A stretch of 64,000 nucleotides of DNA from Acidovorax facilis (lineage in GTDB: Bacteria; Pseudomonadota; Gammaproteobacteria; Burkholderiales; Burkholderiaceae_C), in assembly GCF_023913775.1 (NCBI RefSeq), contig NZ_JAMXAX010000006.1, positions 1-64,000 of the forward strand. The letters run 5' to 3'. Under the pieces are notes generated by a model. It was not told where the DNA came from. It was given only the letters and a program-made list of their open reading frames with translations, and searched no databases. Below are positions 9,239 to 50,699 of the stretch, one piece after another. The number at the start of each line of letters is the position of its first letter. The first letter of the stretch is position 1. A program made the translations under genes and the position numbers.

Positions 9239-9249
9239 CTGCCCCATTC

Positions 9250-23815: not shown

Positions 23816-23884
23816 TGAAGTGCTGGTTTGCCATGGGTTTCGCCTACTTCGTTCAAGTATCGAAGTGGAAGCAGGAGATGTGAT

Positions 23885-25408: not shown

Positions 25409-25416
25409 ACAGGACG

Positions 25417-28400
25417 ATGGCAGACCGCATGGAAATCTCGAACGATCAGAAGCACGAGACCTACCGTGCTCGTCCAGAGCCCGGCCAGTTGGTCGAGGTT
25501 CGTCGGCGCCAGTGGGTCGTGGCGGATGTCGCCTCCTCGAAATTGGAGTCGGCTTCGGCGTCGCAGAACTGCGTGACGCTTTCATCCATCGACGAGGACG
25601 GCCTCGGCGAGGAACTGGAGGTCATCTGGGAGATCGAGCCCGGCGCACAAGTCATCGAACGCGCAGGTTTGCCATCCATCACGGGGCAGGACGACTCGGA
25701 CACGCTCGAAGCCTTCCTCGATGCAGTCCGTTGGGGTGCCGCCACCAACGCCGACAGGGGATTTCTGCAGGCGCCTTTCCGCAGCGGCGTCAGCATCGAG
25801 GACTTCCAGCTCGACCCTCTGGTGCGTGCCATCGACATGGCACGCGTCAACTTGCTCATCGCCGACGACGTCGGTCTAGGCAAGACCATCGAGGCCGGGC
25901 TGATCATCCAGGAGATGCTGCTCCGGCACCGCGCTCGTACCGCATTGATCATCTGTCCTGCTTCGCTCCAGGAGAAATGGCGTGTCGAGATGTTGGAGAA
26001 GTTCGGCCTCGATTTCCGCGTGGTCGACACCTCCTACATCAAGCAGTTGCGACGTGAGCGCGGCATCCACGCCAACCCATGGACCTCCCACCCACGCCTG
26101 ATCGCCTCGATGGACTGGGTCAAGAGTGGAGAAGGCCTGCGCGCCATGCGTGACGTTCTTCCGTCGCATGCCGGCCATCCGCGCAAGTTCGATCTACTGG
26201 TAGTCGACGAGGCACACAACATCGCCCCGGCTGCTGGCGCGCACTACGCGCTCGAGAGCCAACGCACGCGGTTCATCCGTGCGATAAGCCCGCACTTCCA
26301 GCATCGCCTGTTCCTGACCGCAACACCCCACAACGGCTACACCGAGTCGTTCACCTCGCTGCTGGAATTGCTCGACGACCAGCGTTTCGCCCGCAACATC
26401 CTCCCCGACGCGAAGCAGTTGAGCCAGGTGATGATCCGTCGCCTGAAGAGCGATCTGGTCGACGCCCATGGCAAGCCGCTGTATGCCCAACGCAAGCTGC
26501 AGGCGCTGGCGGTCCCGTACACGGATGAGGAACGGGAGATCCATCAGAAGCTGAACGATTACTGTGCCAGTCGCGAGAACGACGCAGAGAAGAACGGCAG
26601 CACCTTCGGCACGTCGTTCGTCAATCAACTGCTCAAGAAGCGCTTGTTCTCGTCGCCTGCGGCGTTCGCCTCCACGCTCGAGAAACACATCGCCTCGCTG
26701 TCAAATGGCGCCAAGCCGAAAACGCAGGACGCCATGGCCGAGCGCATCCTGCGCAAAGCCATTCTGAAAGTGGATGAGGACTACGCCAACGATCAGGAGG
26801 TCGAGAACGCCCAATCGGAGGCCGTCGAGGAGGCTTCACGCCGAGCCCAGCCGCTGACTCAGGAACAGCAGCGGATGCTGGCCGATCTGAGGCAATGGGC
26901 GCAGCGAGCCAAGAATCAGACCGACTCCAAGGGCAGGGCCACCATCGAATGGCTCTCAGCCAACCTGAAACCGGGCGGCCAGTGGAACGATCGCCGGGTG
27001 ATCCTGTTCACCGAGTACCGCACCACACACCAGTGGATGCATGAGATCCTCGCCAGTCATGGCTTCGGCGGTGAACGCCTCGGGCTGCTCCACGGCGGAC
27101 TCACTCAGGATGAGCGGGAGCCCATCAAAGCCGCTTTCCAGGCATCTCCCAAGGTTTCCCCCGTCCGCATCCTGCTCGCCACCGATGCCGCCTCCGAAGG
27201 TATCGACCTGCAGAACCACTGCAATTGCCTCATCCACTTGGAGATCCCCTACAACCCCAACGTGATGGAGCAGCGTAACGGGCGTATCGACCGCCACGGG
27301 CAGCGCGAAAATGAGGTGCTGATCTGGCACCCGGTCGACGGTGGTGACAACGGCCATGCAACGGTCGGCGGCCACGGCGAGGACATCCTGCGTGCACTGC
27401 GCAAACTGGAGTCGATGCGTGCCGACATGGGCAGCGTCAACCCGGTCATCGCGCCTCAGATGTCCGGCCTCATCGAAGGCTCGCTGAAGGATCTGGACAC
27501 CCGCCTGGCGGAAGCCAAGATCGCCAAAGCCCGGCGCTTCGTGCGCGCCGAACGCGAACTGAAAGAACGCGTCGCCAAGCTCCACGAACGCCTCTTGGCC
27601 ACGCAGCAGGATTTTCACCTCACGCCCGATCACGTCCAGATGGCGGTCAAGACCGGCCTCGCGCTAGCGGGCCGCCCACCACTGGAACCCGTCGCCTTGG
27701 CCGGCGCGCCCACAGGCAACGTATTCAGAATGCCACCACTGTCGGGCTCCTGGGCGCGATGCCTGGAAGGCTTGCGACACCCCCATACCCAGCAGATACG
27801 CCCCATCACCTTCGACCACGCCGTGGCCAAGGGGCGGGACGATGTCGTACTCGTCCACCTGAACCATCGCCTGGTCCAGATGTGCCTGCGGCTGTTGCGT
27901 GCAGAAGTCTGGGCACAGGACGATGTCAAGAAACTGCATCGAATCACAGTGCGTACCGTGCGCGATGGACGCATCGAAGTCCCGGCCGTGGTCGTGATCT
28001 CGCGGCTGGTCATCACTGGCGGCAACCACCACCGGCTGCACGAGGAACTGACCGTCTCGGGCGGCTATTTGCGCGATCAGTCGTTCCGGCGCGAAGAGAG
28101 CGTCACCCGTGTCCAGCAGTGGCTGGACGAGGCGCAGCCAGTCTCGGCGAGTGATTCCCTGTTCGATGCCCTCCGGGTTCGCTTCGATCGTGCTCAGCCC
28201 GCCATCCTGCAGTCAGTCGATGCCCGCTCGAAGGATCGGCTCAAGTTTCTGGCCAACACGCTTCAGATCCGCAAGCAGCAAGAGATCGACGACATCGGCA
28301 CCGTACTCGACGAACTTGAGAAGGCGATCCAGAGCGAACTGAAGAAAGACGAGCAACCCGAGCAGCTGGCGCTGTTTACCGAAGACGAACGTACCCAGCT

Positions 28401-28566
28401 CAGACGCGACACCGCTGCGCTGGAGGCCCGCCTCGGACGCATCCCAGCCGAGCGTATCCAGGAAGTCGATGCCATCGAAACGCGCTACGCCAAGCTTGAT
28501 GACCGCACCTTCCCAGTAGCCATGGTGTTCATCATTCCCGAGTCGATGATGGGGGCGATGAAATGA
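25417..28566 (+). CDS. drmD: DrmD-like SNF2 helicase (class 1 DISARM)
   Basis: This is a 1049-aa SNF2/SWI2-type ATPase. Walker A IADDVGLGKTIEAGL lies near residues 148-161 and the DEAH box VVDEAHNIAP near 260-270. Motif III is LTATPHNGYTES, and the helicase C domain contains LATDAASEGIDLQ and RNGRIDRHGQ. The start at 25417 overlaps nothing but lies 8 nt after vsr, with AGGA upstream. DrmD is the gene that separates class 1 from class 2 DISARM. The long C-terminal region is of family-specific type. The stop overlaps the next start (ATGA). Confidence 0.85.
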   Translation: MADRMEISNDQKHETYRARPEPGQLVEVRRRQWVVADVASSKLESASASQNCVTLSSIDEDGLGEELEVIWEIEPGAQVIERAGLPSITGQDDSDTLEAFLDAVRWGAATNADRGFLQAPFRSGVSIEDFQLDPLVRAIDMARVNLLIADDVGLGKTIEAGLIIQEMLLRHRARTALIICPASLQEKWRVEMLEKFGLDFRVVDTSYIKQLRRERGIHANPWTSHPRLIASMDWVKSGEGLRAMRDVLPSHAGHPRKFDLLVVDEAHNIAPAAGAHYALESQRTRFIRAISPHFQHRLFLTATPHNGYTESFTSLLELLDDQRFARNILPDAKQLSQVMIRRLKSDLVDAHGKPLYAQRKLQALAVPYTDEEREIHQKLNDYCASRENDAEKNGSTFGTSFVNQLLKKRLFSSPAAFASTLEKHIASLSNGAKPKTQDAMAERILRKAILKVDEDYANDQEVENAQSEAVEEASRRAQPLTQEQQRMLADLRQWAQRAKNQTDSKGRATIEWLSANLKPGGQWNDRRVILFTEYRTTHQWMHEILASHGFGGERLGLLHGGLTQDEREPIKAAFQASPKVSPVRILLATDAASEGIDLQNHCNCLIHLEIPYNPNVMEQRNGRIDRHGQRENEVLIWHPVDGGDNGHATVGGHGEDILRALRKLESMRADMGSVNPVIAPQMSGLIEGSLKDLDTRLAEAKIAKARRFVRAERELKERVAKLHERLLATQQDFHLTPDHVQMAVKTGLALAGRPPLEPVALAGAPTGNVFRMPPLSGSWARCLEGLRHPHTQQIRPITFDHAVAKGRDDVVLVHLNHRLVQMCLRLLRAEVWAQDDVKKLHRITVRTVRDGRIEVPAVVVISRLVITGGNHHRLHEELTVSGGYLRDQSFRREESVTRVQQWLDEAQPVSASDSLFDALRVRFDRAQPAILQSVDARSKDRLKFLANTLQIRKQQEIDDIGTVLDELEKAIQSELKKDEQPEQLALFTEDERTQLRRDTAALEARLGRIPAERIQEVDAIETRYAKLDDRTFPVAMVFIIPESMMGAMK

Positions 28567-29201
28567 TGACGTGGCAGGAATATCAAGAGGCCGTCGCCGT
28601 GCTCTACGAGCAAGCCGATGGGTTCGGAAACGTCAGCAGGAATGTCATGGCGCCGGACAAGATTACCGGTCAGCCACGACAAATCGACGTTCTCATCGAA
28701 ATTGAGGCCAAGGGACACCCTCTAAAGATGATCGTCGATGCCAAGTTCCACGCCGTCCCGATAGATGTGAGGGAAGTCGAATCAGTCCTCGCGCTCGCCG
28801 ATGCAGTAGGAGCAAACAAAGCCATAGTCGTCGCGGCGAATGGCTGGACTGAGCCTGCCAAGAAGAAGGCCGACCATGTCGGATGTGATCTCGAACTGCT
28901 TTCAGTGGACGAGGCTTTGGACCTGATTGTTCCAGACAAATGGAAGATGTGTCCCTCCTGCGACGCTGACTGCATCGTGCTTGATCAGGAAGGAGCGGTT
29001 ACGTTCGAAGGTGGGGCATGGTTCTGGTGGCTGGCAGGGCAGTGCCGAGGATGCAAGTGCGCACGCATCCATTGCCAAGACTGTGGCCTGAAGGCGTACA
29101 TCGAGCTCCATGCCTCGATGGTTTGCGGGTGCGGCCACCGATGGTCGAGTACCGACGACGGCGTCACCATCGCATTTTTCGAGGTAGATCCTGAATGGTG
29201 A
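28563..29201 (+). CDS. PD-(D/E)xK-like nuclease with C-terminal zinc ribbons
   Basis: This is a 212-aa protein I do not match to a core DISARM gene. The N-terminal half looks like a restriction-endonuclease-like fold: QIDVLIEIEA, then MIVDAKF, giving a D...(D/E)xK-like active site near residues 40-62. The C-terminal half has several CxxC pairs (CPSCDADC, CRGCKC, CQDCG, CGCGH at about 125-200), suggesting two zinc ribbons. It is translationally coupled to drmD (ATGA) and overlaps the adenine methyltransferase start by 7 nt. It could be the nuclease or a DNA-recognition accessory of the cluster. Confidence 0.7.
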   Translation: MMTWQEYQEAVAVLYEQADGFGNVSRNVMAPDKITGQPRQIDVLIEIEAKGHPLKMIVDAKFHAVPIDVREVESVLALADAVGANKAIVVAANGWTEPAKKKADHVGCDLELLSVDEALDLIVPDKWKMCPSCDADCIVLDQEGAVTFEGGAWFWWLAGQCRGCKCARIHCQDCGLKAYIELHASMVCGCGHRWSSTDDGVTIAFFEVDPEW

Positions 29202-32200
29202 CGCCGACTCAACACCACGACTGGCTGGCACTCATCGAGATCTCCGGCCCGTTCCTCGCCGTTCCCGTACTCAAGGAAGCCTTTCCCCAAGGTCTGGAAG
29301 AACTAGACGGCCTCAAACGCAAACGGCTGCGTCAGGCCTACGAGGAATGGCGTGAGGCGCTGGAGACGGATGATCCGCAGTTCGCCGAGCTGCACGCGGC
29401 CTGGATCGACGAGGTGCTGTCCCATGGCCTGGAACTCGACGAGGATGGCAAAGGAGATGTTCTGAAGCGCGCCAACTGGTGTGCGGTCAACTTGAATGTC
29501 AGCCTGGCCGAGCATGGCGTGACGCTATCCCCGAACCTCGCCGTCATCGACGAGCAACGGGGCAACAAGCCGCTGATGCTCATCTATACCTACGCTCAGG
29601 ATGTCGACCTCGATGCCACCCTGAAGCTGGACGGATGGGCCGCCACCCCGGCCGATCGTATGGTTCAGTTGTGCCGCGCCACCGGTTGCCGCCTCGGGCT
29701 GGTGACCAATGGCGAGCGCTGGATGCTGGTCGACGCCCCGGTCGGCGCCGTCACCACCTTCGCCAGCTGGTACGCCCGCATCTGGAGCCAGGAGCCCATC
29801 ACCCTGCAGGCCTTCGTGCACCTGCTGGGCATCCGTCGCTTCTTCGTTGATGAAGCCGAACAACTGCCAGCGCTGTTCGATCGCTCGCTGAAGTATCAGG
29901 ACGAGGTGACTGATGCCCTCGGCGAGCAGGTACGGCGCGCCGTCGAAGTGCTGATCCAGGCTCTCGACAAGACCGACCAGGACCGCGACCGCGAGTTGCT
30001 GCGCAACGTGAAAGAGCCCGTGCTCTACGAAGCCGCGCTGACGGTGATGATGCGGTTGGTGTTCCTGCTCTCCGCCGAGGAGCGTGGCTTGCTGCTGCTC
30101 GGCGACGAACGCTACGAGGCCAATTACGCGCTCTCGACGCTGCGCATGCAGTTACGTAAGGAATCCGAAGAGATCCTCGAACGCCGCTGGGATGCCTGGT
30201 CGCGCTTGCTGGCGATCTTCCGTGCCGTGTTCGGCGGCATCGAACACGAGAACCTGCGCCTGCCCGCACTGGGCGGCTCGCTGTTCGACCCTGATCGGTT
30301 CCCCTTCCTCGAGGGCCGCGCCAAAGGCTCCGAATGGCGCACCGACACCGCCAAACCACTGCCGATCGACAACCGCACCGTGCTGCTGTTGCTCGAAGCC
30401 ATCCAGCAGTTCCAGGGTCGGACGCTGTCCTACCGCGCACTGGACGTGGAACAGATCGGCTACGTCTATGAGGGCCTGCTGGAGCGCACCGTCAAACGCA
30501 CCGCCGAGGTCACGCTGGAACTCGACGGCACCAAGAGTGCCAAGGCCCCCTGGGTCAAGTTGGCCGAGCTGGAGTCCGCCCGGCTGGATGGTGCCGAACG
30601 CCTCGCCGAATTGCTTCAGGAGCGTTCCGGCAGTTCCGCCAGCCGCGTACGCAACGATCTGGCCAAGTCAGTGGACGACACGCTGTCCGATCGCCTGCTG
30701 GCCGCCTGTCATGGGGACACAAACCTTCGTAATCGCATCAAGCCTTTTGCCCACTTGGTGCGCACCGATCCGTGGGGCTATCCGCTGATCTATCCCGCCG
30801 GGGCCTTCATCGTCACCACCGGTTCCGACCGGCGCGAGACGGGTACCCACTACACGCCGAAGTCGCTGACCGAAGCCATCGTCACCGAGACACTGACGCC
30901 GATCGCCTACGTGGGACCGGCGGAGGGCAAACCGCGCGAGCAGTGGGTGCTCAAGTCCCCCGCCGAATTGCTCGACCTGAAGATCTGCGACCCGGCCATG
31001 GGTTCGGGTGCCTTCCTGGTGCAAGCCTGCCGCTGGCTTGCCGATCGCCTCGTCGAGGCGTGGTCACAGGCAGAGGCGCAGGGCATGACGATCGGTGTCG
31101 ATGGGCGGGTGGCGGACGCGGACGCCAGCATCGAGGCGCTGCCACGCGACACCGAGGCGCGCACAATCGCCGCCCGCCGCCTCATCGCGGAACGTTGTCT
31201 CTACGGCGTCGATCTGAACCCGCTGGCGGTCGAACTGGCCAAGCTCTCCATCTGGTTGGTGACGCTGGCCAAGGGGCGACCCTTCGGCTTCCTCGACCAC
31301 AACCTGCGCTGTGGTGACAGCCTGCTCGGCATCCATCGACTGGAGCAACTAACGCAGCTTTCGATGAACCCCACGGGTCAAGGCCAGCTACGCCTGTTCG
31401 GCCAGAACGTCGAACGGGCCATGCGCGAGGCCATCGAATTGCGCTCGCTTCTGCGCGAAATGCCCATCCGCGACATCCGTGATGTCGAAGCCATGGCGCA
31501 TCTGGACGCCAACGCGCGCCGCACGCTCGAGGTGCCGGAAAGCATCGCCGATGCGTTCATCGGGGAGGTGTTCGCATCGGGCGGCGGCACGGCACTGGAG
31601 AAAACGCTGGGGTCGCTGACCATCCAAGCCGGGCAAGCCATCGATGGCGACCGCGAAGTGCTCGCCTCGATGCGCCGGAGATTGGTCGCTGCGCTCTCGA
31701 TCGATCTACCCGCCGACAAGTCCGCGCGTCGGCCTTTCCATTGGCCGTTGGAGTTTCCGGAGGTGTTCGCGCGCGAGGCCCATGGTTTCGACGTCATTGT
31801 CGGCAATCCTCCATTCAGCGGTGGACGCTGGATCGGGCGGCGCTTGGGCCTGACATATCAAGAGTATTTGAAGCTGGTGCGGAACGGCATAGTTGGTTCG
31901 CCCGATCTCTGCGTCTATTTCTATCTGCGAGCCTTTTCCTTGCTTGGATCGAAGGGCTGTTTTGGACTGCTGGCGACCAAGTCGATCACGGAGACCGGCT
32001 CCCGTATGGTTTGCCTGGATCAGATCATCGGAATGGGTGGAACCGTCTATCGTGGTTGCTCACGGATGGCTTGGCCGGGTAATGCAGCGGTGGTCGTTTC
32101 GATCGCATGGGTTGCCCGTGATGGCTGGCAAGGCCAGAGAGTCTTGGACGATCGAACGGTATCGGCCATCAACGGCGCGCTGGAAGAGGATTTCCAGATC

Positions 32201-33496
32201 AAGCGCCCGATGAAGCTCAAGGCGCTGAAAGGGAAGTTTTCGCAGGGCCAGGACATCATGGGGCGCGGTTTCGAACTTACAGCCGAAGAGCGTGCTGAGA
32301 TGCTCGCTGCCGATCCATCGTGTGCAGAAGTGATCTTCCCGCTGTTCAACGGGCAAGACCTCAATACCATGCCGAGGCTGGAACCCTACCGATGGGTCAT
32401 CTACTTCCGGGATTGGCCGGAAGAAAAGGCGCGGCAGTATGGTGCTGCATTCCATCGTGTTGAAGAGCTGGTCAAGCCCTATCGCGACTCGCTAACAGGA
32501 CAGATCCATCAAGACTGTTACTGGAAGTTTTGGGACCTTCGTCCTCAACTCATTTCTGAACTTGATGCGCGAATGACGGTGCTCGCATCAGCGATAAATA
32601 GCAAGTATGTGTCATTTCGACGTGTCCCCACTGGAAACGTATACAACAAGAAAACCAAACTCTATTTCATCGACGCATGGTGGGAGTTCGCGGTCCTCCA
32701 GTCTAGCTTCCATCAGGAATGGGCATTCTGGACCTGTGGCACCCTTGGTGCGTCAACGATCAACTATTCCACGTCCGTGGCATTTGAGACCTGGCCGATG
32801 CCGACAGTTGACAAGTACGCACAGGCTGGTTTGGAAAAGCTTGGCGAGGAGTATCACACTCTTCGGGAACAGGTCCTTCTTCAAAATGAATTCGGTCTGA
32901 CGAAGCTCTATAACCGCTTCCACGATCCTTCGGACGATGATTCTCGAATTGAGTTGATCCGCAGCCTGCATCGTGAAATCGACATCGCGGTCGCTCGCGC
33001 CTATGGCTGGGACGACCTCGATTTGGAGCATGGATTCCACGAAGTGCCGTATCTGCCAGAGAGCGACCGCGTTCGCTTCACCATCAGCGATCGTGTGCGC
33101 CTCGCAGTACTGCGCCGCTTGTCAGAGCTGAACCATCAGCGATACGAGGAAGAAGTCGCCCGAGGGCTGCATGCCGACGCCACACCGCGCACTTCGTCCC
33201 GTGCCCCGCGCGCCGGTCGCGCCACCAGAGCTGCTCCGGCGCAACCCTCGCTCGACTTCGATGCAGCGATGGCGGCCACCACCAATGGTGCGACTCCGGC
33301 CTCGGCGATTCTCGGGTTCCTGTGCGCGCACGACGGCTGGCACGCCAAGGCCGACGTCCTCGCCGCCACCGGCATCACGGATGGCCAGTGGAGCGCCGCG
33401 ATCGCCGACCTGATCGCGGGCGGCAGGGCCGAACGCCAAGGTGAAAGGCGCGGGGCGCGCTATCGAGCCATGACCGGAGTGGAGAGGTCACCATGA
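29195..33496 (+). CDS. drmMI: DrmMI-like N6-adenine methyltransferase (Eco57I/PglX type)
   Basis: This is a large (1433 aa) gamma-type adenine methyltransferase. The AdoMet motif CDPAMGSGAFLVQACRWL is near residue 598 and the catalytic NPPF motif (VIVGNPPFSGG) near 868. A roughly 580-residue N-terminal region of type-IIG/PglX character precedes it, and a small winged-helix-like C-terminus follows. In class 1 DISARM, DrmMI marks self DNA. From about 31850 to 32960 base composition falls well below the flanks, coinciding with the expected target-recognition domain. This suggests exchange of specificity. The start overlaps the previous gene and the stop overlaps the KAP start. Confidence 0.82.
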   Translation: MVTPTQHHDWLALIEISGPFLAVPVLKEAFPQGLEELDGLKRKRLRQAYEEWREALETDDPQFAELHAAWIDEVLSHGLELDEDGKGDVLKRANWCAVNLNVSLAEHGVTLSPNLAVIDEQRGNKPLMLIYTYAQDVDLDATLKLDGWAATPADRMVQLCRATGCRLGLVTNGERWMLVDAPVGAVTTFASWYARIWSQEPITLQAFVHLLGIRRFFVDEAEQLPALFDRSLKYQDEVTDALGEQVRRAVEVLIQALDKTDQDRDRELLRNVKEPVLYEAALTVMMRLVFLLSAEERGLLLLGDERYEANYALSTLRMQLRKESEEILERRWDAWSRLLAIFRAVFGGIEHENLRLPALGGSLFDPDRFPFLEGRAKGSEWRTDTAKPLPIDNRTVLLLLEAIQQFQGRTLSYRALDVEQIGYVYEGLLERTVKRTAEVTLELDGTKSAKAPWVKLAELESARLDGAERLAELLQERSGSSASRVRNDLAKSVDDTLSDRLLAACHGDTNLRNRIKPFAHLVRTDPWGYPLIYPAGAFIVTTGSDRRETGTHYTPKSLTEAIVTETLTPIAYVGPAEGKPREQWVLKSPAELLDLKICDPAMGSGAFLVQACRWLADRLVEAWSQAEAQGMTIGVDGRVADADASIEALPRDTEARTIAARRLIAERCLYGVDLNPLAVELAKLSIWLVTLAKGRPFGFLDHNLRCGDSLLGIHRLEQLTQLSMNPTGQGQLRLFGQNVERAMREAIELRSLLREMPIRDIRDVEAMAHLDANARRTLEVPESIADAFIGEVFASGGGTALEKTLGSLTIQAGQAIDGDREVLASMRRRLVAALSIDLPADKSARRPFHWPLEFPEVFAREAHGFDVIVGNPPFSGGRWIGRRLGLTYQEYLKLVRNGIVGSPDLCVYFYLRAFSLLGSKGCFGLLATKSITETGSRMVCLDQIIGMGGTVYRGCSRMAWPGNAAVVVSIAWVARDGWQGQRVLDDRTVSAINGALEEDFQIKRPMKLKALKGKFSQGQDIMGRGFELTAEERAEMLAADPSCAEVIFPLFNGQDLNTMPRLEPYRWVIYFRDWPEEKARQYGAAFHRVEELVKPYRDSLTGQIHQDCYWKFWDLRPQLISELDARMTVLASAINSKYVSFRRVPTGNVYNKKTKLYFIDAWWEFAVLQSSFHQEWAFWTCGTLGASTINYSTSVAFETWPMPTVDKYAQAGLEKLGEEYHTLREQVLLQNEFGLTKLYNRFHDPSDDDSRIELIRSLHREIDIAVARAYGWDDLDLEHGFHEVPYLPESDRVRFTISDRVRLAVLRRLSELNHQRYEEEVARGLHADATPRTSSRAPRAGRATRAAPAQPSLDFDAAMAATTNGATPASAILGFLCAHDGWHAKADVLAATGITDGQWSAAIADLIAGGRAERQGERRGARYRAMTGVERSP

Positions 33497-35634
33497 CCGC
33501 ATTGTCTGCCGACCGCCCCAGCACTGACCCGAAAGACGATCTGTTTGGGCATGCGCCGTTTGCAAAGAGCCTGGCCGACAGTATTTGTCGTTACCCCGGC
33601 AGTGATGGGCTGGTACTCGCACTCTACGGTCCGTGGGGCTCCGGGAAGTCCACAGTGCTGAGCTACGTGAGCCACTACCTCGATCAACAGCCCAATGGGG
33701 ACCGGCCCGCCGTTGTGACCTTCAACCCTTGGTGGTTCTCCGGGCAGGAAAACCTGGCCCGCGCCTTCCTTGGCCAGCTACAGGCCGTGCTGCCTACGAA
33801 GAGCGACAAGTTCAAAAAGCTGGGCGATCTGCTGGGTGATTTCGCCGAAGGCGTCGGGGGTTTGATAGACCTTTCCGGCATGACCGGGGGCGCGGCGGGC
33901 AAGTTCGGGAAACTCATCGGGATGGTGACCAAGCGAAAGCCGAAAGACGTACCTGCGCTCAAATCCCAGATCAGCAAAACACTGAAGGAAGCCGGAAAAC
34001 GCATCCTGGTCGTCATCGACGACATTGATCGCCTGACTCCAGAAGAGACGCGCCAGCTCTTCACGGTCATCAAGGCGCTGGCGGATTTCCCGAATGTTGT
34101 CTACCTGCTGGCCTTCGACCGCGACGTCGCCGCCCAGGCCATCGAGCAGCAGAGCGGCCTACCCGGTGAACGCTATCTGGAGAAGATCATCCAGGTGCCG
34201 TTCGAGCTGCCGCCGGTCGATCGCGTGGCCCTGCGCGCGGCGCTGTTCAAGCGCCTCGACGAGGTGCTGGGTGATACGCCTGAAGGCTCGCTCGATCAGT
34301 CGTACTGGACGAACGTCTACCACGATGGAATCGATCCACTGATTCAGGTGCCTCGCGACGTAGTGCGCCTCACCAATACGTTGGCCGTCACTTACCCGGC
34401 CGTGCGTGGTGAGGTGAATCCAGTCGATTTCATTGCGCTGGAATCGCTACGCGTCTTCCTACCGGCCCTTTATGACGTCGTCCGCACGAATCCGGACCGG
34501 TTCTCGGGTCATAGCAGGGATGACAGATACGAAGGGGATCGGAAGACCGCTCAAGCCTTTCACGAGCAGTGGATCAATGAAATACCGGAAGCGTTTCGGG
34601 CGAGCACTCAAGCGCTGTTGGAGCGCATCTTTCCGAAGATCGGTCAGATGGGCTACGGCTCGGATTGGCTGGCTGAATGGCGGCGAAACCTGCGGGCCAG
34701 CCATCCGGATGTATTCCCGATCTATTTTCGGCTCACCGTTCCTCCCGGAGCCATCCGCCGTAGCGAGATGTTGACACTGCTGAATCTGGCCGCGTCGCCA
34801 TCAGACTTTGGCAATGCACTCGTTCAAGCCAAGGAAAAACGGCGGCCTGATGGCATGTCAAGGGCGCGGGCACTGCTCGAACGACTGATGGACCACGTCG
34901 AGAAGGACATCCCGGACGCGCAGATCTCATCGGTCATCCAAGCGCTTTTCGATGTCGGTGACGCATTGATCGATTCCAGAGACGAGCGCGGAATGTTCGA
35001 CTTCGGCAATGTCTCGCGCGCTTCGCGCCCCGTCTATCACCTTCTGAAGCGACTCACCGTCGATCAACGTGTGGCAGTGCTGGAGGCGGCAATACGTTCC
35101 GGCAGCGCCGTTGCAGTGCAGTTGTGGCTCTTGCAAGCGCTGGACGAGGCGGTCACGAAGGCAATGGAGTCCAGCGAATCCACACTACTTGGGGCCGATG
35201 AAGTCGAACGACTGAAGGCGGCGTGGCTGGATCGAGTGAGGACGATGTCGGGTGAGGCGAACTTCTTGCACCATCCTGAATTGCCAAGACTTCTCGCCAT
35301 TTGGAGACGTTGGGCAAACGACGCCGAGGTACGGGCGTGGTGCGATCGAACCACTGCGTCAGATGAAGGCCTGCTGAGCTTTCTGCCGCGATTCCTGCAG
35401 CACACCAGATCGCAAACCGTCGGAGATTGGGCGGTTCGACTGCAACCTCGCCTCAATCCTACTTGGTTGGAAACCTACATCGACACGGCCGCCTGCGCAG
35501 ACCGACTTCGCATCTTGCAGCGAAACGACAAGGCGCCTACCGGTGCACAGGAGGCGGTATCACAGTACCTGACAGAGTTCGAGATGCTCCAGGCAGGCAA
35601 GAACCCGGATGGTATCGGCGCGTTTGACGACTAG
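33493..35634 (+). CDS. KAP-family P-loop NTPase
   Basis: This is a 713-aa STAND-like NTPase. It has Walker A ALYGPWGSGKSTVLSYVS (about 43-60), then VTFNPWWFSGQENLARAFLG, typical of KAP ATPases, and Walker B KRILVVIDDIDRLTPEE (about 169-185). A Gly-rich insertion around residues 115-145 (GGLIDLSGMTGGAAGKFGKL) may be membrane-active, as in many KAP proteins. The C-terminal half is helical without a recognised domain. It is coupled to drmMI by an ATGA overlap and sits between drmMI and drmA, where a core DISARM operon has no such gene. It may sense or gate the system, or pair with the next gene. Confidence 0.85.
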   Translation: MTALSADRPSTDPKDDLFGHAPFAKSLADSICRYPGSDGLVLALYGPWGSGKSTVLSYVSHYLDQQPNGDRPAVVTFNPWWFSGQENLARAFLGQLQAVLPTKSDKFKKLGDLLGDFAEGVGGLIDLSGMTGGAAGKFGKLIGMVTKRKPKDVPALKSQISKTLKEAGKRILVVIDDIDRLTPEETRQLFTVIKALADFPNVVYLLAFDRDVAAQAIEQQSGLPGERYLEKIIQVPFELPPVDRVALRAALFKRLDEVLGDTPEGSLDQSYWTNVYHDGIDPLIQVPRDVVRLTNTLAVTYPAVRGEVNPVDFIALESLRVFLPALYDVVRTNPDRFSGHSRDDRYEGDRKTAQAFHEQWINEIPEAFRASTQALLERIFPKIGQMGYGSDWLAEWRRNLRASHPDVFPIYFRLTVPPGAIRRSEMLTLLNLAASPSDFGNALVQAKEKRRPDGMSRARALLERLMDHVEKDIPDAQISSVIQALFDVGDALIDSRDERGMFDFGNVSRASRPVYHLLKRLTVDQRVAVLEAAIRSGSAVAVQLWLLQALDEAVTKAMESSESTLLGADEVERLKAAWLDRVRTMSGEANFLHHPELPRLLAIWRRWANDAEVRAWCDRTTASDEGLLSFLPRFLQHTRSQTVGDWAVRLQPRLNPTWLETYIDTAACADRLRILQRNDKAPTGAQEAVSQYLTEFEMLQAGKNPDGIGAFDD

Positions 35635-35643
35635 GTGGAGCAG

Positions 35644-37599
35644 ATGACAGACATATACAAGATGACGGTCGACCTGAACGTGCTCGACCACCTCGGGATC
35701 AACCTGTACAGCAACATCGCCGCCGTTCTGACCGAGGCCGTTGCGAACGCCTGGGATGCCGACGCAGAAACCGTAGACATCAAGATCGACCCGGAAGGCA
35801 ACTGGATCGAGATCGTCGATGACGGTATCGGCATGTCGGTCGACGACATGAACGGCAAATACCTGCGAGTCGGGTATCGGCGGCGTGATGAAGATGTTGA
35901 ACATGGCAAGACCACTGCGAAGGGCCGACCGGTGATGGGCCGCAAAGGGCTCGGCAAGCTCTCGCTGTTCTCGATCGCCAACGTCATCGAAGTCGAGTCG
36001 GCCAGGGATGGAGCAGCTCATGGCCTCCGCATGTCTGTGGCTGGAATCCACGAATCGGTTCAGAAGAAGGAACCGTTCTATGGCCCCGAAGCCTTACCTG
36101 CTGACAAGATTGGCGTAACCAAGGGCACGCGCATCGTCTTGCGCGACATCAAGCGGCAGCGTCTCGGCCGTGGAGCGCTGGCGCTGCGTAAACGCCTGGC
36201 TCGCCGCTTCTCGGTGATCGGCGAGGCGCACGGGTTCAAGATCGATCTCGACGGCCAGCCCATCACGCCCTCCGACCGGGGAGACCTACCGATGGTGCAG
36301 TTCCTCTGGCAGTTCGGCGATGACGCGCTCGACCTGACTCCCGCCAGTCAGCTCCTTGAGCAGGAATCGCTACCGAACCGCTTCGATGCCTGGGACACCG
36401 GATGGAAGGTCAGCGGCTGGATCGGCACGGCCAGGTTCCCCAAGCAACTGGACAGTGAGGATGCCGGTAACCTAAATGGCATCGTCGTGTTCGCCCGTGG
36501 CCGGCTGTTTCACGAGAACATCCTCGACAAACTGAATGACGGGCGGCTCTACACGAAGTACCTCACGGGGCAGATCGAGGCCGATTTCCTCGATGCTGAC
36601 GACGCGCCAGACATCGCGACCAGCGACCGACAGCGCGTGCAGGAGGATGACCCTCGATATGGGCAGCTCATCGCCTTTTTGAAATCGCGTCTGACGCAGG
36701 TCGAGAAGCGCTGGACGGAGTGGCGCAAAAAGCACGAGGTCGAGAAGGCGAAAGAAACTTCGCCCGCTCTCGCCGAGTGGCTCGACACGCTGCCCGAGGG
36801 GTACAAGAAAAGTGCGGAGACGCTGATCGCCAAGCTCAGTGCGCTGCCGGTCGATGAAGAAGAGGACCGGAAGCTCATGTATCGGCATGGCATCCTGGCC
36901 TTCGAGCGCATGAAGTTGCGCGGATCGACCGAGGAGTTCGTGACCAGCATCGAGAGTGCCGACAGGCTCCTGGCCGTGCTCGCCGACAGGGACTCTCTCG
37001 AAGCATCCCTCTACCGGGACATCGTCAAATCGCGTCTGGATGCGATCCGGGATTTCCAGACCATCATCGATGAAGACGCGAAAGAACGCGTGCTCCAGAA
37101 GTACCTGTTCGATCACCTCTGGTTGCTGGACCCGGCATGGGAGCGCGCCACCGGCAGCTCGATCATGGAATCGCGCCTCACGACGGAAGGCGTGCTCATC
37201 GACGACATGACCGAGAAAGAGCGTTTGGGCCGCGTCGACCTCGCCTATCGCACCAATGCAGGCAAGCACGTCATCGTCGAACTCAAGAAGGTCGGCCGCA
37301 AGATGGGATTGCTCGAGCTGGTGGAGCAAGGCCAGACCTACGTCGACAAGCTGAGAAAGATCCTGCGCGAGCAAAACGATGCCAGCCCCAACATCGAGGT
37401 GATCTTCGTGCTCGGTAAAACCGTCGACGAAGAGGCATCGAACCCCGACCGCCTCAAGTCATCGATGACGTCGATCTCGCCAGGCAGCCGCATCGTCCAT
37501 TACGACACTTTGATTCGGGGCGCTCAAGAGGCGTATTCGGCGTACATCGAAAAGAGCAAGTCACTCGACAAGCTCGAAAAGATCGTGGACAGAATTTGA
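35644..37599 (+). CDS. GHKL (MORC/Hsp90-like) ATPase fused to nuclease-like domain
   Basis: This is a 651-aa protein with a Bergerat-fold ATPase at the N-terminus. The N-box is LTEAVANAWDADAE (about 28-41), the G1 box IVDDGIGM (about 57-64), and the G2 box GRKGLGKLSLFSIAN (about 99-113). The C-terminal 150 residues contain LGRVDLAYR followed by KHVIVELKKVGRKMG (about 527-553), which reads as a PD-(D/E)xK nuclease core (DUF-type). ATG 35644 with a nearby GGAG is preferred over GTG 35635. The protein resembles ATP-gated nucleases. It follows the KAP gene by 9 nt and precedes drmA by 12 nt. Confidence 0.8.
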   Translation: MTDIYKMTVDLNVLDHLGINLYSNIAAVLTEAVANAWDADAETVDIKIDPEGNWIEIVDDGIGMSVDDMNGKYLRVGYRRRDEDVEHGKTTAKGRPVMGRKGLGKLSLFSIANVIEVESARDGAAHGLRMSVAGIHESVQKKEPFYGPEALPADKIGVTKGTRIVLRDIKRQRLGRGALALRKRLARRFSVIGEAHGFKIDLDGQPITPSDRGDLPMVQFLWQFGDDALDLTPASQLLEQESLPNRFDAWDTGWKVSGWIGTARFPKQLDSEDAGNLNGIVVFARGRLFHENILDKLNDGRLYTKYLTGQIEADFLDADDAPDIATSDRQRVQEDDPRYGQLIAFLKSRLTQVEKRWTEWRKKHEVEKAKETSPALAEWLDTLPEGYKKSAETLIAKLSALPVDEEEDRKLMYRHGILAFERMKLRGSTEEFVTSIESADRLLAVLADRDSLEASLYRDIVKSRLDAIRDFQTIIDEDAKERVLQKYLFDHLWLLDPAWERATGSSIMESRLTTEGVLIDDMTEKERLGRVDLAYRTNAGKHVIVELKKVGRKMGLLELVEQGQTYVDKLRKILREQNDASPNIEVIFVLGKTVDEEASNPDRLKSSMTSISPGSRIVHYDTLIRGAQEAYSAYIEKSKSLDKLEKIVDRI

Positions 37600-37611: not shown

Positions 37612-40600
37612 ATGACGAAAACATCCAACGCATGGATCGCCATTGATCATGGCCTCGGCACCGACCACAGGCTCCAGCCCTACGTCCTGGTTCTGAAGGG
37701 TGAGCGTTCTCTCTATCGAAGTATCGAAGAAGACGACTGGGTCCTGGTCCTGAACCCCACTGGCGGCATCACCCGTGTCGGGCGTGTGCTGCGGGTTCGT
37801 TCGAACCTCGACACCACCACGCTCTATTTCGACCGAGTGCTGTCGGCCACAGAACCGGTTTCGATCGGCGTCACTTCGCTCACTCTGCCGTCGTCGGGAA
37901 GCATCGGTCGCGTCCAGTGGATCGATTTCGTCGAAGCACTGCCCAAGGCACTGCATAAGACCATTGCCGAAGTTCCGACGGTCGGCTCTGACGCCCGTTC
38001 AACCCAGCATCAGCAGGAGCTCGCCTACATCCGCGAACTGCTGCAACTGGCGGTGATGGACGATCTGCTCGGCCCTGCTGGCGGCCCTCACGAACGCATC
38101 GTCGATATGGGCGTGCGCGATCGCTACCTGGTCGGCAAGCTCGCCCCGCGTGAGGCGGCACAGGGTGGCATCGAGGGGCTCGAAGGGCCGCTGGCGAATG
38201 ACGAGGCCGAGGAGCCTACCGACCCCAAGGCACCTGGTCAGCATGAACCCGGTGCGGAATTCGGCACGGCGACAGGCCGAGTCGAGCCCGAGTCCGACGC
38301 CACCGATGAGATCGACGCCGCCAGCAATCAGTCGCTGGTGCCGAGCAGTCTGGGCATGACCTTTTGCGTGGATGGCGATGCCGAGCGGATCGAGATAGAG
38401 GTGCGCTGGGGTCGCTATGAGCGCAGTGACGAGCACGAAATCTTTCGCACCCGCAAGAACAGAGAAACCGGCGCCGAGGAGCAGACCAAGGCTAAGGTTT
38501 GGCAACGCATTCCCTGCGGCGGCAAGCTGGTGCTGCCGCTAACCGAAGGCGTGATCCCCCATCAGGCGCCGGACAAGACCTATCCCGAAGTGCGGGTGCA
38601 GGGCTCCGTGAGGGCCAAGAACGCGAATGGCGATCGCTTGGTGACGCTGTTCCTGGTCAACGCACAGGAGGAGCCCGACACCAACCGTGATACAGCCTGG
38701 GTGTTCCAGCCGGAGCTGATCGTGCGTTCGGAAGCGGAAGCGCCCAAGCGCGCGATCTTCCGCCGCCGGCCCGTGCTGGATGCCGACGGCATGGACCCGG
38801 AGCGCGAGTCGCTGGAGATGATCTACCGCAACCGGGTAGAGTTCGCGGTGGGGCACGGCGTCGCCGTCCATGCCGAAGCGGCGGATGACGTGACGCTGGC
38901 CACCGAGGTGCGCATCACCGTCATGCCGCAGTACGAGGTGCAGGTCACCGAGACACCGGGGCTGGACCCCGCCGACCGGCCGGCGATGAAGGAAATGGTG
39001 AGCAGTGGCCTGCTCGACATGCAGCGCCTCGCCACACTGGACATCGATCCGCTGGTCGACGCCCTCAACCTGTTGACCAAGGATTACGCCGCGTGGATCA
39101 ATGAGCAGCGTGCTCGGGTCGGCATCGACGTGCTTGGCTACGACGCGCAGTCGCAACAGGCAATGGATCGATGCCAGGAGATCCACACTCGCCTGCAGCA
39201 GGGTATCGATACGCTGAAGAGCGACGCGAATGCCCTGGCGGCCTTCCGTTTCGCTAACCGGGCAATGGCCACGCAGCGCGTGCGTAGCCAATACGCCCTC
39301 GAAATCCGGCGCGGCAAGGATGTCACCGTCGAGCAGTTCGACGTGCTGAAGAACCGCAGCTGGCGCCCGTTCCAGTTGGCGTTCCTGCTGCTGTCGATCC
39401 CTTCGCTGGCCGAACCGACGCACCCGGACCGCGTACAACCGGTCGAAGCCTATGCCGACCTGTTGTGGTTCCCCACCGGCGGCGGCAAGACCGAGGCCTA
39501 CTTGGGTGTGGCCGCCTTCACCATGGCCATTCGGCGCATGCAGGGCAACCTGGGCGGGTACGACGGCTCGCGTGGTCTGGCCGTGATCATGCGTTACACC
39601 CTACGCCTGCTTACGCTGCAACAGTTCCAACGTGCCACCGCGCTGATATGCGCGATGGAAGTGCTGCGACGCGAGGCGCTGGCCAAGGGCGACGAGTCAC
39701 TCGGCACCGAGCCCTTCACCATCGGCCTGTGGGTGGGCAATAAGGTGACGCCGGGCGCGACCGAGGACAGCCATCGTGCCATCGAGGACATCCGCAACCC
39801 CGGCAAGTACAACGCCGGGGCGGCGTCTCCCGCTCAACTGACCAGTTGCCCCTGGTGTGGCTCGGAAGTCGCCCCTGGGCGCGACGTCGAGGTCGACAAG
39901 GGGCGTGGGCGCACCTTCGTCTACTGTGGCGACAAGAGGGGCCGTTGCGACTTCTCGAAGGGCAAGTCCAGCAAGCTCCCTCACGCGGGTATTCCGGTGC
40001 TGGTCGTAGACGAGGAGATCTACCACCGCCCCCCGACCATGATGATCGCCACGGTGGACAAGTTCGCCATGATGGCGTGGCGGGGCCAGGTGCGCACGCT
40101 GTTCGGTCGGGTGGGCCAGGAATGCGAGCGGCACGGCCTGCTATGGCAGGGCGCGGACTGCAATGGCAATCATCAGGCAGGCAAGGGTCTTGCTGCCTCC
40201 AAGGTCAAGAACATCAGCCCGATTCGCCCGCCTGATCTGATCATTCAGGATGAGTTCCACCTGATCAGCGGACCGCTTGGAACCATGGTCGGCTTGTACG
40301 AGACGGCCGTGGATGAGCTTTGCGGCTGGAAACTTGGCGAGCATACGGTCAAGCCGAAGATCATCGCGTCGACCGCCACGGTGCGAAAGGCCCGCGAGCA
40401 GGTGAACAACGTCTTCATGCGGCGCGTGTCGGTGTTCCCCCCGCATGGGCTGGACGTAGAGGACAACTACTTTTCAGTCCAGCGATCGATCGAGGACAAA
40501 CCGGGTCGGCGGTACCTCGGGGTCTGCTCCCCGGGTAGTTCGCGACCTGCGATGTTGATTCGGGTCTACACGGCCTTCCTGACCGCCGCGCAAGGGTTGT

Positions 40601-41631
40601 TCGATCGCTTCGGCGAGCCAGCAGACCCGTACATGACCATGGTCGGCTACTTCAACTCGCTGCGTGAGCTGGGCGGAATGAAGCGCTTGGCCGAGGACGA
40701 CGTGCAGACGCGTTCCTACCGGGTGCAGATGAGCATGGTCGAGCGGCCAGCATTGGCACAACGCAGCGTCAGCAATATTCGCGAGTTGACGTCTCGAGTC
40801 TCCAGCCAGGACATCCCGAAGTACCTCGATCAGTTGGAGGTGAAGTTCAAGTCCGAGTTCGACGTTGCCGCCGGCAAGTACGTGACCAAGTGGCAGGATG
40901 GCGACACCCGGGCAATCGACGTAGTGTTGGCGACCAACATGCTGTCGGTGGGTGTCGACGTCAATCGACTGGGGCTGATGGCAGTCAATGGCCAACCCAA
41001 GGGCACGGCCGAGTACATCCAGGCCACCAGTCGTGTGGGCCGTTCCTTCCCCGGCTTGGTGTGCACCGTGCTCACGTGGGCGAGACCACGCGACCTCTCG
41101 CACTACGAAACCTTCGAGCACTACCACGCCACCTTCTACAAACACGTCGAAGCGCAATCGGTAACGCCTTTCTCGCCGCGCGCGATGGATCGTGGGCTGA
41201 CAGGCTCGTTGCTCAGCCTGATGCGCCTCGATAACGATGCGTTCAGCCCCAACGAGGGTGCAGGCAAGTTGGACAAATCTGACCAGACCGAGATCACCGA
41301 TGCTATCGATGTGCTGGTCAAGCGCGCCTGGAACGTCAGCGAGCTGTCCAGTACCAAGAGCCTGGCCAAACAGGAACTCAAGGAGCGCGCAGACGAGTGG
41401 GCTAAGGAAGTGGGCAAAGGCGGCCGTATCCTGGCCTATGAGAAGCGCGGTCCCGAGAAGGACAAGACCGTTGCATTGATCAGGTCACCGGGCATCCAAG
41501 CCTGGGACAACTGGACCGTGCCCATGTCGATGCGTGAGGTGGAGCCTGGCGTGCGCTTGATCATGAACACCAGCCACATCACGGACGACCACGATTGGAA
41601 GCCTCGTCCCGCGACGAAGGATGAGGATTGA
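37612..41631 (+). CDS. drmA: DrmA-like helicase
   Basis: This is a very large (1339 aa) superfamily-2 helicase, one of the three core DISARM genes. Walker A LLWFPTGGGKTEAYLGVAAF lies near residues 617-636, and a DEFH box (IIQDEFHLISGPLGTM) near 876-891. Helicase C motifs TNMLSVGVDVNRLGLM and QATSRVGRSFPGLV follow. Between the two halves lies a zinc-binding insert CPWCG...CGDKRGRC (about 746-783). The N-terminal 600 residues include an OB-like start and an acidic linker at about 190-240. It overlaps the drmB frame region by a few bases, so translation is probably coupled. Confidence 0.9.
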   Translation: MTKTSNAWIAIDHGLGTDHRLQPYVLVLKGERSLYRSIEEDDWVLVLNPTGGITRVGRVLRVRSNLDTTTLYFDRVLSATEPVSIGVTSLTLPSSGSIGRVQWIDFVEALPKALHKTIAEVPTVGSDARSTQHQQELAYIRELLQLAVMDDLLGPAGGPHERIVDMGVRDRYLVGKLAPREAAQGGIEGLEGPLANDEAEEPTDPKAPGQHEPGAEFGTATGRVEPESDATDEIDAASNQSLVPSSLGMTFCVDGDAERIEIEVRWGRYERSDEHEIFRTRKNRETGAEEQTKAKVWQRIPCGGKLVLPLTEGVIPHQAPDKTYPEVRVQGSVRAKNANGDRLVTLFLVNAQEEPDTNRDTAWVFQPELIVRSEAEAPKRAIFRRRPVLDADGMDPERESLEMIYRNRVEFAVGHGVAVHAEAADDVTLATEVRITVMPQYEVQVTETPGLDPADRPAMKEMVSSGLLDMQRLATLDIDPLVDALNLLTKDYAAWINEQRARVGIDVLGYDAQSQQAMDRCQEIHTRLQQGIDTLKSDANALAAFRFANRAMATQRVRSQYALEIRRGKDVTVEQFDVLKNRSWRPFQLAFLLLSIPSLAEPTHPDRVQPVEAYADLLWFPTGGGKTEAYLGVAAFTMAIRRMQGNLGGYDGSRGLAVIMRYTLRLLTLQQFQRATALICAMEVLRREALAKGDESLGTEPFTIGLWVGNKVTPGATEDSHRAIEDIRNPGKYNAGAASPAQLTSCPWCGSEVAPGRDVEVDKGRGRTFVYCGDKRGRCDFSKGKSSKLPHAGIPVLVVDEEIYHRPPTMMIATVDKFAMMAWRGQVRTLFGRVGQECERHGLLWQGADCNGNHQAGKGLAASKVKNISPIRPPDLIIQDEFHLISGPLGTMVGLYETAVDELCGWKLGEHTVKPKIIASTATVRKAREQVNNVFMRRVSVFPPHGLDVEDNYFSVQRSIEDKPGRRYLGVCSPGSSRPAMLIRVYTAFLTAAQGLFDRFGEPADPYMTMVGYFNSLRELGGMKRLAEDDVQTRSYRVQMSMVERPALAQRSVSNIRELTSRVSSQDIPKYLDQLEVKFKSEFDVAAGKYVTKWQDGDTRAIDVVLATNMLSVGVDVNRLGLMAVNGQPKGTAEYIQATSRVGRSFPGLVCTVLTWARPRDLSHYETFEHYHATFYKHVEAQSVTPFSPRAMDRGLTGSLLSLMRLDNDAFSPNEGAGKLDKSDQTEITDAIDVLVKRAWNVSELSSTKSLAKQELKERADEWAKEVGKGGRILAYEKRGPEKDKTVALIRSPGIQAWDNWTVPMSMREVEPGVRLIMNTSHITDDHDWKPRPATKDED

Positions 41632-41633
41632 AC

Positions 41634-43493: not shown

Positions 43494-43494
43494 C

Positions 43495-44256
43495 ATGGAA
43501 AAGCTCTTGGACGCCGTCGCAGCCGTGGTCTGTCTGGTCTCTCCAGAGAAGGTCCAGGCCATAGCTAGCCGGATTCGTCGGACCGATGCCAGCAAAACAG
43601 CCGGTGCGCTGTCGGGCGTGGTCAGCACCCCCGTTGCTGCTGAGGTTGTGGATCAGCTCATCGATGCTTGGCGAGCCAGTGAGGTCGGCGCCGATGAGCT
43701 TGCATCGATGCTGCTCGCCGCCGGCCATGTTTTCACCAAGGCTACGAATCAACAATCCACCGAACTCGTGTGGACGGGACCGACGACACCCTTCGTCTCG
43801 GCTCGACGAACCGAGCAGGCGCTACTGCAGGTCATCAACGCCGCTGAGCAGACCCTGTTCATCACCAGCTTCGTGGCCTATAACGTCTCGACCATCGTCA
43901 AGGCGCTGAATGCGGCAAGTTCCCGCGGAGTGGTCATCTCCATGCTGCTCGAGTTGTCTCAGGACCACGGCGGCAGCATCACCTTCGATGCGATAGGCAA
44001 GATGAGAACGCTGGTCCCCGCCGCACGACTCTACGCCTGGCGTGATAAGGCCGACCTATTTTCCGACGGGCGCGTCCACGCCAAAGTCGCCGTAGCCGAC
44101 GGCAGGATGTGTTTCATCACCAGCGCGAACCTTACCGGGCACGCGATGGACAGGAACATGGAGGCCGGGCTACTGATCTCCAGGGGGCATATTCCCCCAA
44201 CGCTGGATGAGCATCTGCGCGCGTTGGTCTCCATGAGGATCGTATCCCCGGTATGA
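43495..44256 (+). CDS. drmC: DrmC, phospholipase D-like protein
   Basis: This is the third core DISARM protein (253 aa) with one PLD/HKD motif, VHAKVAVADGRMCFITSANL (H196, K198, D203), so an active site would need a dimer. An earlier segment AEQTLFITSFVAYNVS resembles the first half of a PLD repeat without HKD. The start ATG 43495 is 1 nt after the drmB stop. Its family includes nucleases, but the catalytic role in DISARM is not settled. It closes the plus-strand cluster, and the next feature is a transfer-gene relic on the other strand. Confidence 0.88.
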   Translation: MEKLLDAVAAVVCLVSPEKVQAIASRIRRTDASKTAGALSGVVSTPVAAEVVDQLIDAWRASEVGADELASMLLAAGHVFTKATNQQSTELVWTGPTTPFVSARRTEQALLQVINAAEQTLFITSFVAYNVSTIVKALNAASSRGVVISMLLELSQDHGGSITFDAIGKMRTLVPAARLYAWRDKADLFSDGRVHAKVAVADGRMCFITSANLTGHAMDRNMEAGLLISRGHIPPTLDEHLRALVSMRIVSPV

Positions 44257-44281
44257 CACGATTGCGATGCCCTCGGGTGAT

Positions 44282-44542: not shown

Positions 44543-44557
44543 TGGTTTGTTGTGTCG

Positions 44558-48787: not shown

Positions 48788-48793
48788 GGCACT

Positions 48794-49692: not shown

Positions 49693-49694
49693 AC

Positions 49695-50564: not shown

Positions 50565-50699
50565 AAAGCAATCACGGCCACGACCGCAAGGAGGTTTCTC
50601 TTGTACGCCATAGCAGATTGTGCCGATGGGTATTGAGATTCCTCATTCCTCCATGCAGGGTACCCACGGAGTCCGAGATGGAGAATCTATCGCGCGCTC

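Follow-up and report, generated by a model that had tools for sequence, protein, structure and literature searches.

In a 64,000-nt stretch of Acidovorax facilis DNA (GCF_023913775.1, NZ_JAMXAX010000006.1, positions 1-64,000, forward strand; hereafter the window), a KAP-family NTPase gene and a GHKL ATPase-nuclease gene are located side by side in a class 1 DISARM (defence island system associated with restriction-modification) operon, where they separate drmMI from drmA. Our results made it quite probable that these two genes do not form a unit, that the GHKL protein is the restriction endonuclease of a type II-like 5-methylcytosine (5mC) restriction-modification (R-M) system of the BbrUII/HgiDII family, with the predicted site GTCGAC, interleaved with DISARM, and that the KAP NTPase is optional docked cargo. 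The R-M system was read as interleaved because the operon opens with genes for a 5mC methyltransferase and Vsr. What looked like a new system of two genes thereby becomes a statement open to testing: DISARM has built into it a restriction enzyme that can be named, whose site is predicted, and whose GHKL ATPase is intact. The use of ATP by a type II-family enzyme is unusual, and it can be assayed directly for the GHKL protein. The components are already known, and the combination of an interleaved R-M system with a cargo slot was not found described in limited literature searches, in which the founding DISARM paper was not among the texts covered.

Both open reading frames (ORFs), KAP at 33493-35634 and GHKL at 35635-37599, were open and complete, which confirmed where an earlier reading of the letters by themselves (the sequence-only reading) had placed them, and PADLOC matched drmD, drmMI, drmA, drmB, and drmC in the class 1 order around them. 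All genes of the operon are on the + strand. There is a 4-bp overlap between the KAP start and the drmMI stop, the GHKL ORF abuts KAP directly, and drmA begins 12 bp past the GHKL ORF, so all these genes, drmD, drmB, and drmC included, were read as one operon. The likely start of the GHKL protein is the ATG at 35644, since its homologues begin there.

The GHKL protein matched NCBIfam NF050001 (BbrUII/HgiDII family restriction enzyme) over residues 8-654 with 863.5 bits (1.1e-259), the curated cut-off being 550, and PADLOC REase_II at 2.9e-113. NF050001 was also matched by all 26 members of the close alignment A1 (E<=1e-20), and eight of nine more distant homologues exceeded its cut-off, the ninth (L135) scoring 281 bits; the MORC-type GHKL protein of locus L093 gave no match to this model. 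By its sequence, the window protein is thus assigned as a full-length member of the BbrUII/HgiDII family, a family that also goes by the name paraMORC3 and has type I-D Shedu as a relative. The embedded defence function proposed by the sequence-only reading gained support. The paraMORC3 architecture, consisting of a GHKL domain, an S5-like module, and a C-terminal restriction-endonuclease fold with D and ExK residues, was described in 2008 by Iyer, Abhiman and Aravind in the main text of PMC2292703, where Vsr and SFII helicases are named among the R-M neighbours of MORC and paraMORC genes. The window protein shares this architecture; in the same main text, which predates the name DISARM, KAP has no occurrence. 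A search of phage records gave one match to the enzyme. In Escherichia phage PhiR44_1 (L027; P2-type gene names), the enzyme is annotated as ParaMORC3 and is located with a converging Dcm gene between the portal and replication genes.

Conservation and fold matches agreed with this domain layout. Among 64 aligned GHKL homologues, three of which represent one gene from one contig, the GHKL motif residues E34, N38, D62, G64, G66, G102, G105, and G107 were invariant (64/64). The ATPase domain (residues 28-140, 35716-36054) matched PF13589 at 8.7e-16, and the predicted ATPase and middle domains (residues 13-364) resembled MORC3 (Z 17.9, rmsd 5.2, 282 residues) and MutL (Z 15.3, rmsd 4.3, 267 residues), so the MORC-like ATPase module that had been suspected is present, with intact N-terminal motifs and an S5-type middle domain as in paraMORC3. 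In the C-terminal nuclease region (residues 436-654, 36940-37596, with D535, E549, K551, and Q565), the residues D535, E549, and K551 were kept in 63, 62, and 61 of the 64 sequences, respectively. This region was modelled separately because the full-length model had low confidence at residues 499-542, and the best match of the model was E. coli SduA 8ps5 (Z 9.1, rmsd 5.4, 177 residues; VIA-align), followed by B. cereus Shedu and then by N.BspD6I, NucS/EndoMS, and FokI chains (Z 9.1 to 6.7). The conserved D and ExK residues together with the SduA match point to a PD-(D/E)xK-like domain of the restriction-endonuclease type, again as in paraMORC3, and the sequence-only reading, which would have been abandoned had this fold been lacking, is supported in its nuclease-like C-terminus. 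When the PDB was searched by profile with the GHKL protein, the matches listed (60 of 67) covered the ATPase part only and were mostly Hsp90-type chains.

The likely partner of the enzyme, and its putative cognate, is the 5mC methyltransferase at the operon front (Dcm/DrmMII type, 23828-24928), together with the Vsr mismatch endonuclease (24950-25408). The gene inventory of the sequence-only reading had missed both of them, as well as a Mrr-like gene at 28563-29201. The methyltransferase matched Pfam DNA_methylase (7.9e-57), PADLOC DrmMII/MTase_II, and TIGR00675 (136.6 bits, cut-off 100.65), and Vsr matched Pfam Vsr (3.9e-15) and TIGR00632 (110.2 bits, cut-off 97.85). In the 29 non-DISARM viral contigs carrying the enzyme (L109-L137; ORFs under 130 aa disregarded), a 5mC methyltransferase gene always adjoined the enzyme gene, directly or across a Vsr gene; the enzyme is near-complete in 27 of these contigs, which form 20 clusters at 90% identity. 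It was directly upstream of the enzyme in the three genome loci without DISARM homologues in the flanks examined (L020, L022, L023), and it was adjacent in four of five annotated records (L027, L029, L030, L031), the fifth (L028) having a methyltransferase-Vsr pair about 11 kb upstream. Within DISARM, 16 of the 17 enzyme-bearing loci in which the region was visible had the methyltransferase at the operon front, while the region was not reached in seven of the 24 loci (L008, L013, L014, L016, L017, L019, L096). Enzyme-bearing genome loci were found by exact peptide patterns, and the counts from this genome-contig scan are biased towards this enzyme because such patterns find close relatives only.

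The methyltransferase stretch around PGGTWRDW...CH...YGRM, which we take to be the target-recognition region, was among the best-conserved parts when DISARM and stand-alone copies were compared. This shared putative target-recognition stretch therefore suggests that the two kinds of methyltransferase recognise one site. The site of M.HgiDII and M.BbrUII is GTCGAC according to passages of PMC5867850 and PMC5005818. The window system accordingly resembles the BbrUII/HgiDII family in its full-length match far above the equivalog cut-off, in its 5mC methyltransferase company, and in the common putative target-recognition stretch. It differs from the family in that its methyltransferase is located about 10.7 kb upstream of the enzyme gene, the intervening genes being Vsr, Mrr, KAP, and those of DISARM, and in that its cutting and its site are predicted.

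The sequence-only reading had called the first gene of the pair a P-loop ATPase, and this was borne out by a match to KAP NTPase PF07693 (1.3e-61) with intact motifs. W48-G49-x-G51-K52 and D177-I-D-R-L181, presumably Walker A and Walker B, were identical in all 10 aligned sequences, the window included. The protein matched the PADLOC PifA model over its full length (7.4e-117, residues 3-687) and a record annotated pifA with 23.7% identity over 87% (tblastn). A PDB sequence search returned nothing up to E 0.1, and the phage records contained no KAP match. A membrane protein was considered and rejected, the highest 19-residue hydropathy mean being 1.5 with no clear membrane segment. A second, distant KAP gene (30% identity; L104) is present on contig 69 of the window's own genome.

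KAP was present in six of the 24 enzyme-bearing DISARM loci (the window, L005, L006, L008, L017, L026) and in none of the 29 non-DISARM viral loci in the flanks examined; no stand-alone pair turned up in these loci, and not KAP but the 5mC methyltransferase is the regular companion of the enzyme. Locus L026 was colinear with L002 at 86-90% DNA identity on both sides, KAP alone making the difference there. L024 has no KAP but carries, directly before the enzyme gene, a stretch matching the last 43 KAP residues (56% identity, E 1e-7), which is identified as a remnant of KAP loss; among 21 stretches searched ahead of enzyme genes lacking KAP, within DISARM or elsewhere, this was the only one with such a remnant. 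The non-DISARM KAP of L145, which adjoins GAP1 and double-GTPase genes, was 84-85% identical to the KAPs of L005 and L006, these being 71-72% identical to that of the window. The KAP tree (duplicates and short copies L001, L063, L035, L108, L064, L065, L066, and L088 dropped) grouped L145 with L005 and L006 at support 100/100, and a single clade of DISARM KAPs was rejected (p-AU 2.4e-6). Neither the enzyme nor DrmA was found in the genomes of L145 and L152, which hold close non-DISARM KAPs (70% and 50% identity; 0/2 for each); the L145 KAP is 1.1 kb from the contig end, and that 1.1 kb has no enzyme similarity. On the enzyme tree (L001, L063, L035, L108, and L036-L038 dropped as duplicates or short copies), KAP presence took at least 4 changes, 2 of which were forced by well-supported branches. 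The sequence-only reading had held that a pair confined to DISARM and co-evolving there would speak against a self-contained unit; the outcome was divided, as the pair was seen only inside DISARM but without a history common to both genes. We conclude from these comparisons of sequence that KAP is optional cargo with its own history and not a unit with the enzyme. The IMG/VR contig represented by L026, L035, and L108 carries DISARM, KAP, and the enzyme, and is possibly a conjugative element misfiled as viral.

The position of the two genes was assessed in a less biased sample, for which DrmA was the query against 399 genomes from the order, 369 from the class, and 72,556 plasmids. Close DISARM operons were defined by DrmA at least 60% identical and a visible drmMI-drmA junction, which gave six including the window; L140 (contig starting at drmA) and L143 (a drmA fragment) were omitted. 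The junction was occupied in all six, and the enzyme was present in one, the window, where it stands with KAP. L138 and L093 carry a MORC-type GHKL protein and Methyltransf_35, L139 and L141 a UvrD-like helicase and DUF2290, and L153, in which drmMI is broken by an IS66 transposase gene, a UG5 reverse transcriptase-nitrilase. The enzyme was inside this junction in 20 of the 24 enzyme-bearing DISARM loci, and further occupants there were a MORC-type GHKL ATPase as well (L016), a type III-A retron-like phosphoribosyltransferase and reverse transcriptase (PRTase-CE plus reverse transcriptase, 7371-9920, between drmMI and the enzyme gene) with a YhcG nuclease (L096), a DUF4209 protein (PADLOC PDC-S39; L018), an AspBHI-like enzyme (PADLOC methyl-directed; L021), and a second DrmD-like helicase with a protein of 541-547 aa (L004, L011, L017). 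The junctions of L004 and L007 also hold products of 594 aa and 238 aa, respectively, with no Pfam or PADLOC match. The junction was empty in L019, L010, and L029, in which the enzyme is elsewhere beside DISARM; in L029 (DrmA 54%, counted in neither the close nor the distant group), the enzyme, methyltransferase, and Vsr genes adjoin drmC. The drmD/drmMI junction holds a Schlafen-type helicase in L003, L096, and L141.

Among eight distant class 1 DISARM operons with an intact junction, four were empty there (L142, L095, L163, L165) and four (L094, L161, L164, L166) held unrelated small, opposite-strand, or hypothetical genes, so the earlier statement that core DISARM has no genes at this place was right for half of them. 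In the stretches examined of these eight, tblastn found no enzyme, KAP, Vsr, or related 5mC methyltransferase; L164 has an annotated cytosine methyltransferase downstream of drmB that is too dissimilar for detection by tblastn. The distant DrmA matches were opened in part, and L162 (drmA apart from drmD/drmMI), L144 (a 5.4-kb contig), and L151 and L160 (no DrmMI match) are not among the eight. The drmMI-drmA junction has the look of a slot into which defence genes insert. A wider suggestion, less likely than not, is that the internal junctions of class 1 DISARM (drmD/drmMI, drmMI/enzyme, enzyme/drmA) are a recurrent docking platform for defence modules exchanged precisely between coding sequences, that one 5mC mark set by the front methyltransferase is the self-signal for both DISARM and the interleaved ATP-gated type II restriction enzyme, and that KAP may be a back-up when both fail. 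Should the junctions indeed be a platform for cargo, the genes for the 594-aa protein (L004), the 238-aa protein (L007), and the 541-547-aa proteins (L004, L011, L017) would count as candidate defence genes, and self-marking common to two systems would, if true, explain why the 5mC methyltransferase persists in class 1 DISARM.

Some results weigh against the R-M interpretation, and they are considered here with the other explanations that can be given for the two genes. The sequence-only reading had regarded KAP and GHKL as a dedicated sensor-effector pair, in which KAP would sense infection and unleash the GHKL nuclease independently of methylation. The genes are adjacent, co-oriented, and abutting, KAP inside DISARM always stood directly before the enzyme gene (6/6), and its presence was clustered on the enzyme tree beyond chance (4 of 500 shuffles as low). 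Such a pair is nevertheless very improbable, since KAP is lacking in 18 of the 24 enzyme-bearing DISARM loci (one with the remnant) and in all 29 non-DISARM viral loci, its close relatives occur in two genomes with no enzyme or DrmA match, and unrelated genes occupy the same junction elsewhere. The low correlation of KAP and enzyme distances (0.27; 15 pairs, 6 loci) points the same way but says little, because enzyme and DrmD gave -0.04 in the same six loci and the test had low power. The genes might conceivably be a switch controlling DISARM, as had been proposed. Another possibility is that the GHKL protein is a Shedu of type I-D, similar to VcSduA, with a KAP gene added; it would attack phage DNA directly and need no methyl mark. 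According to passages of PMC12137116, VcSduA is a single-gene system with a GHKL ATPase followed by a DUF4263/SduA-like nuclease, and its defence needs both the ATPase and the nuclease residues. The window protein, compared with VcSduA by description and not by direct alignment, has the same domain order, Shedu chains scored Z 9.1, 9.0, 8.7, and 8.5 against its C-terminal model, and 29 of 43 homologues gave weak SduA_C matches (E<=0.1, best 3.3e-4). However, the window protein itself reached 15.2 bits with Pfam SduA_C against a cut-off of 27, while it is far above that of the BbrUII/HgiDII model, and unlike VcSduA it travels regularly with a methyltransferase, which makes this explanation rather unlikely. 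The R-M interpretation is itself weakened by the moderate confidence of the C-terminal model (mean predicted local distance difference test score 67.7), by a Foldseek search with this model that found nothing at E<=0.001 (Shedu chains ranking top), and by the Z of 9.1 against SduA, which just modestly exceeds the usual best scores of unmatched models.

The remaining results of this kind concern the tie of the enzyme to DISARM and to the methyltransferase. Enzyme distances tracked the whole DISARM operon (Pearson 0.83-0.92, ten loci), with 0.88-0.92 for drmD, drmA, and drmB over a wide range, and no extra tie to the methyltransferase was detected by distance correlation in the ten loci (0.85), a pattern also expected if the enzyme were an integrated part of DISARM. 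The GHKL nuclease could then be an integral DISARM effector or gate whose R-M role is secondary or lost, in line with its position between drmMI and drmA in 20 of the 24 loci and with the different, MORC-type GHKL ATPase that takes this junction in L138, L093, and L016. In L010, the enzyme is in DISARM with no methyltransferase within the 21.9 kb examined, and the window shows no avoidance of GTCGAC (27 sites, 25.2 expected). Furthermore, the methyltransferase and Vsr were retained in all five close DISARM operons without the enzyme (L093, L138, L139, L141, L153; found via DrmA), so they are not solely partners of the enzyme and probably also serve DISARM. We consider an integral DISARM role unlikely, as the enzyme is absent from five of the six close operons in the DrmA sample and from all eight distant ones, is located outside the drmMI-drmA junction in L029 and L010, and occurs outside DISARM with the methyltransferase alone.

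In the preferred reading, that of a restriction enzyme of an interleaved R-M system, the family assignments, active-site residues, gene neighbourhoods, and separate histories are observed, and the site, the ATP gating, the division of labour, and the KAP function are predicted. The GHKL module would dimerise on ATP, as in MutL, MORC, and VcSduA, and would thereby allow the C-terminal PD-(D/E)xK nuclease to cleave incoming DNA at unmethylated GTCGAC. The front 5mC methyltransferase would shield the GTCGAC sites of the host, Vsr would mend the T:G mismatches arising by deamination at the methylated site, and DISARM would work alongside, possibly reading the same methyl mark. KAP is a PifA-like single-gene NTPase with a probably independent, perhaps abortive, defence function, which would have docked between drmMI and the enzyme gene as one of several defence genes in the internal junctions of the operon. 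Its likeness to PifA, the KAP NTPase of F-like plasmids, lies in the full-length match to the PADLOC model and in the tblastn match to the pifA record; it differs from PifA in its distant sequence and in its place inside DISARM. Compared with class 1 DISARM, the window operon has all five drm genes in order and adds the front 5mC methyltransferase and Vsr as well as cargo in the drmD/drmMI and drmMI/drmA junctions.

The other genes of the operon were assigned as follows. The drmD gene, encoding a SNF2-like helicase (25156-28566; PADLOC DrmD, E=0), probably starts past the Vsr gene, because the alignments of several homologues do not set in before about residue 91. The Mrr-like restriction endonuclease gene (Pfam Mrr_cat, 6.7e-9) is an optional occupant of the drmD/drmMI junction, also present in L011 and L024. 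It is followed by drmMI, encoding a MmeI-like methyltransferase (29195-33496; PADLOC DrmMI, E=0). Downstream of the enzyme gene are the drmA helicase gene (37612-41631; PADLOC DrmA, E=0), drmB (41628-43493; PADLOC DrmB, 1.2e-83; NF038324, 774.9 bits), and drmC for a PLD-type nuclease (43363-44256; PADLOC DrmC, 8.2e-118; Pfam PLDc_2, 7.3e-18). In the 3' part of drmMI (about 31828-33490), DNA similarity to L002, L007, L026, and L024 broke off at about 31.8-32.1 kb, and DrmMI was 62-81% identical (best segment) in close loci while DrmD and DrmA were 79-97% identical. The target-recognition half of drmMI has likely been exchanged, because similarity stops inside the gene and DrmMI identity is lower than that of DrmD and DrmA.

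The surrounding island looks like an integrative conjugative element, with a tRNA-Gly (1645-1718) adjoining a tyrosine integrase gene (1939-3810), and with TraI_2, TraG_N, DUF2895, a TraD/TraG coupling protein, and an AbiE antitoxin gene in 1645-22051 and 51446-53617. Beside DISARM is an operon resembling CBASS (cyclic oligonucleotide-based antiphage signalling system), consisting of a patatin phospholipase, a DncV-like nucleotidyltransferase, and an E2-ThiF fusion (45022-48787, - strand), and it is followed by an IrrE-type peptidase gene (49695-50564, + strand). DISARM and CBASS seem to be two distinct cargoes of a single element, because L002 (Rhodanobacter) shares in its positions 19624-21953 the right-hand sequence of the window (44266-53028) but without the CBASS stretch.

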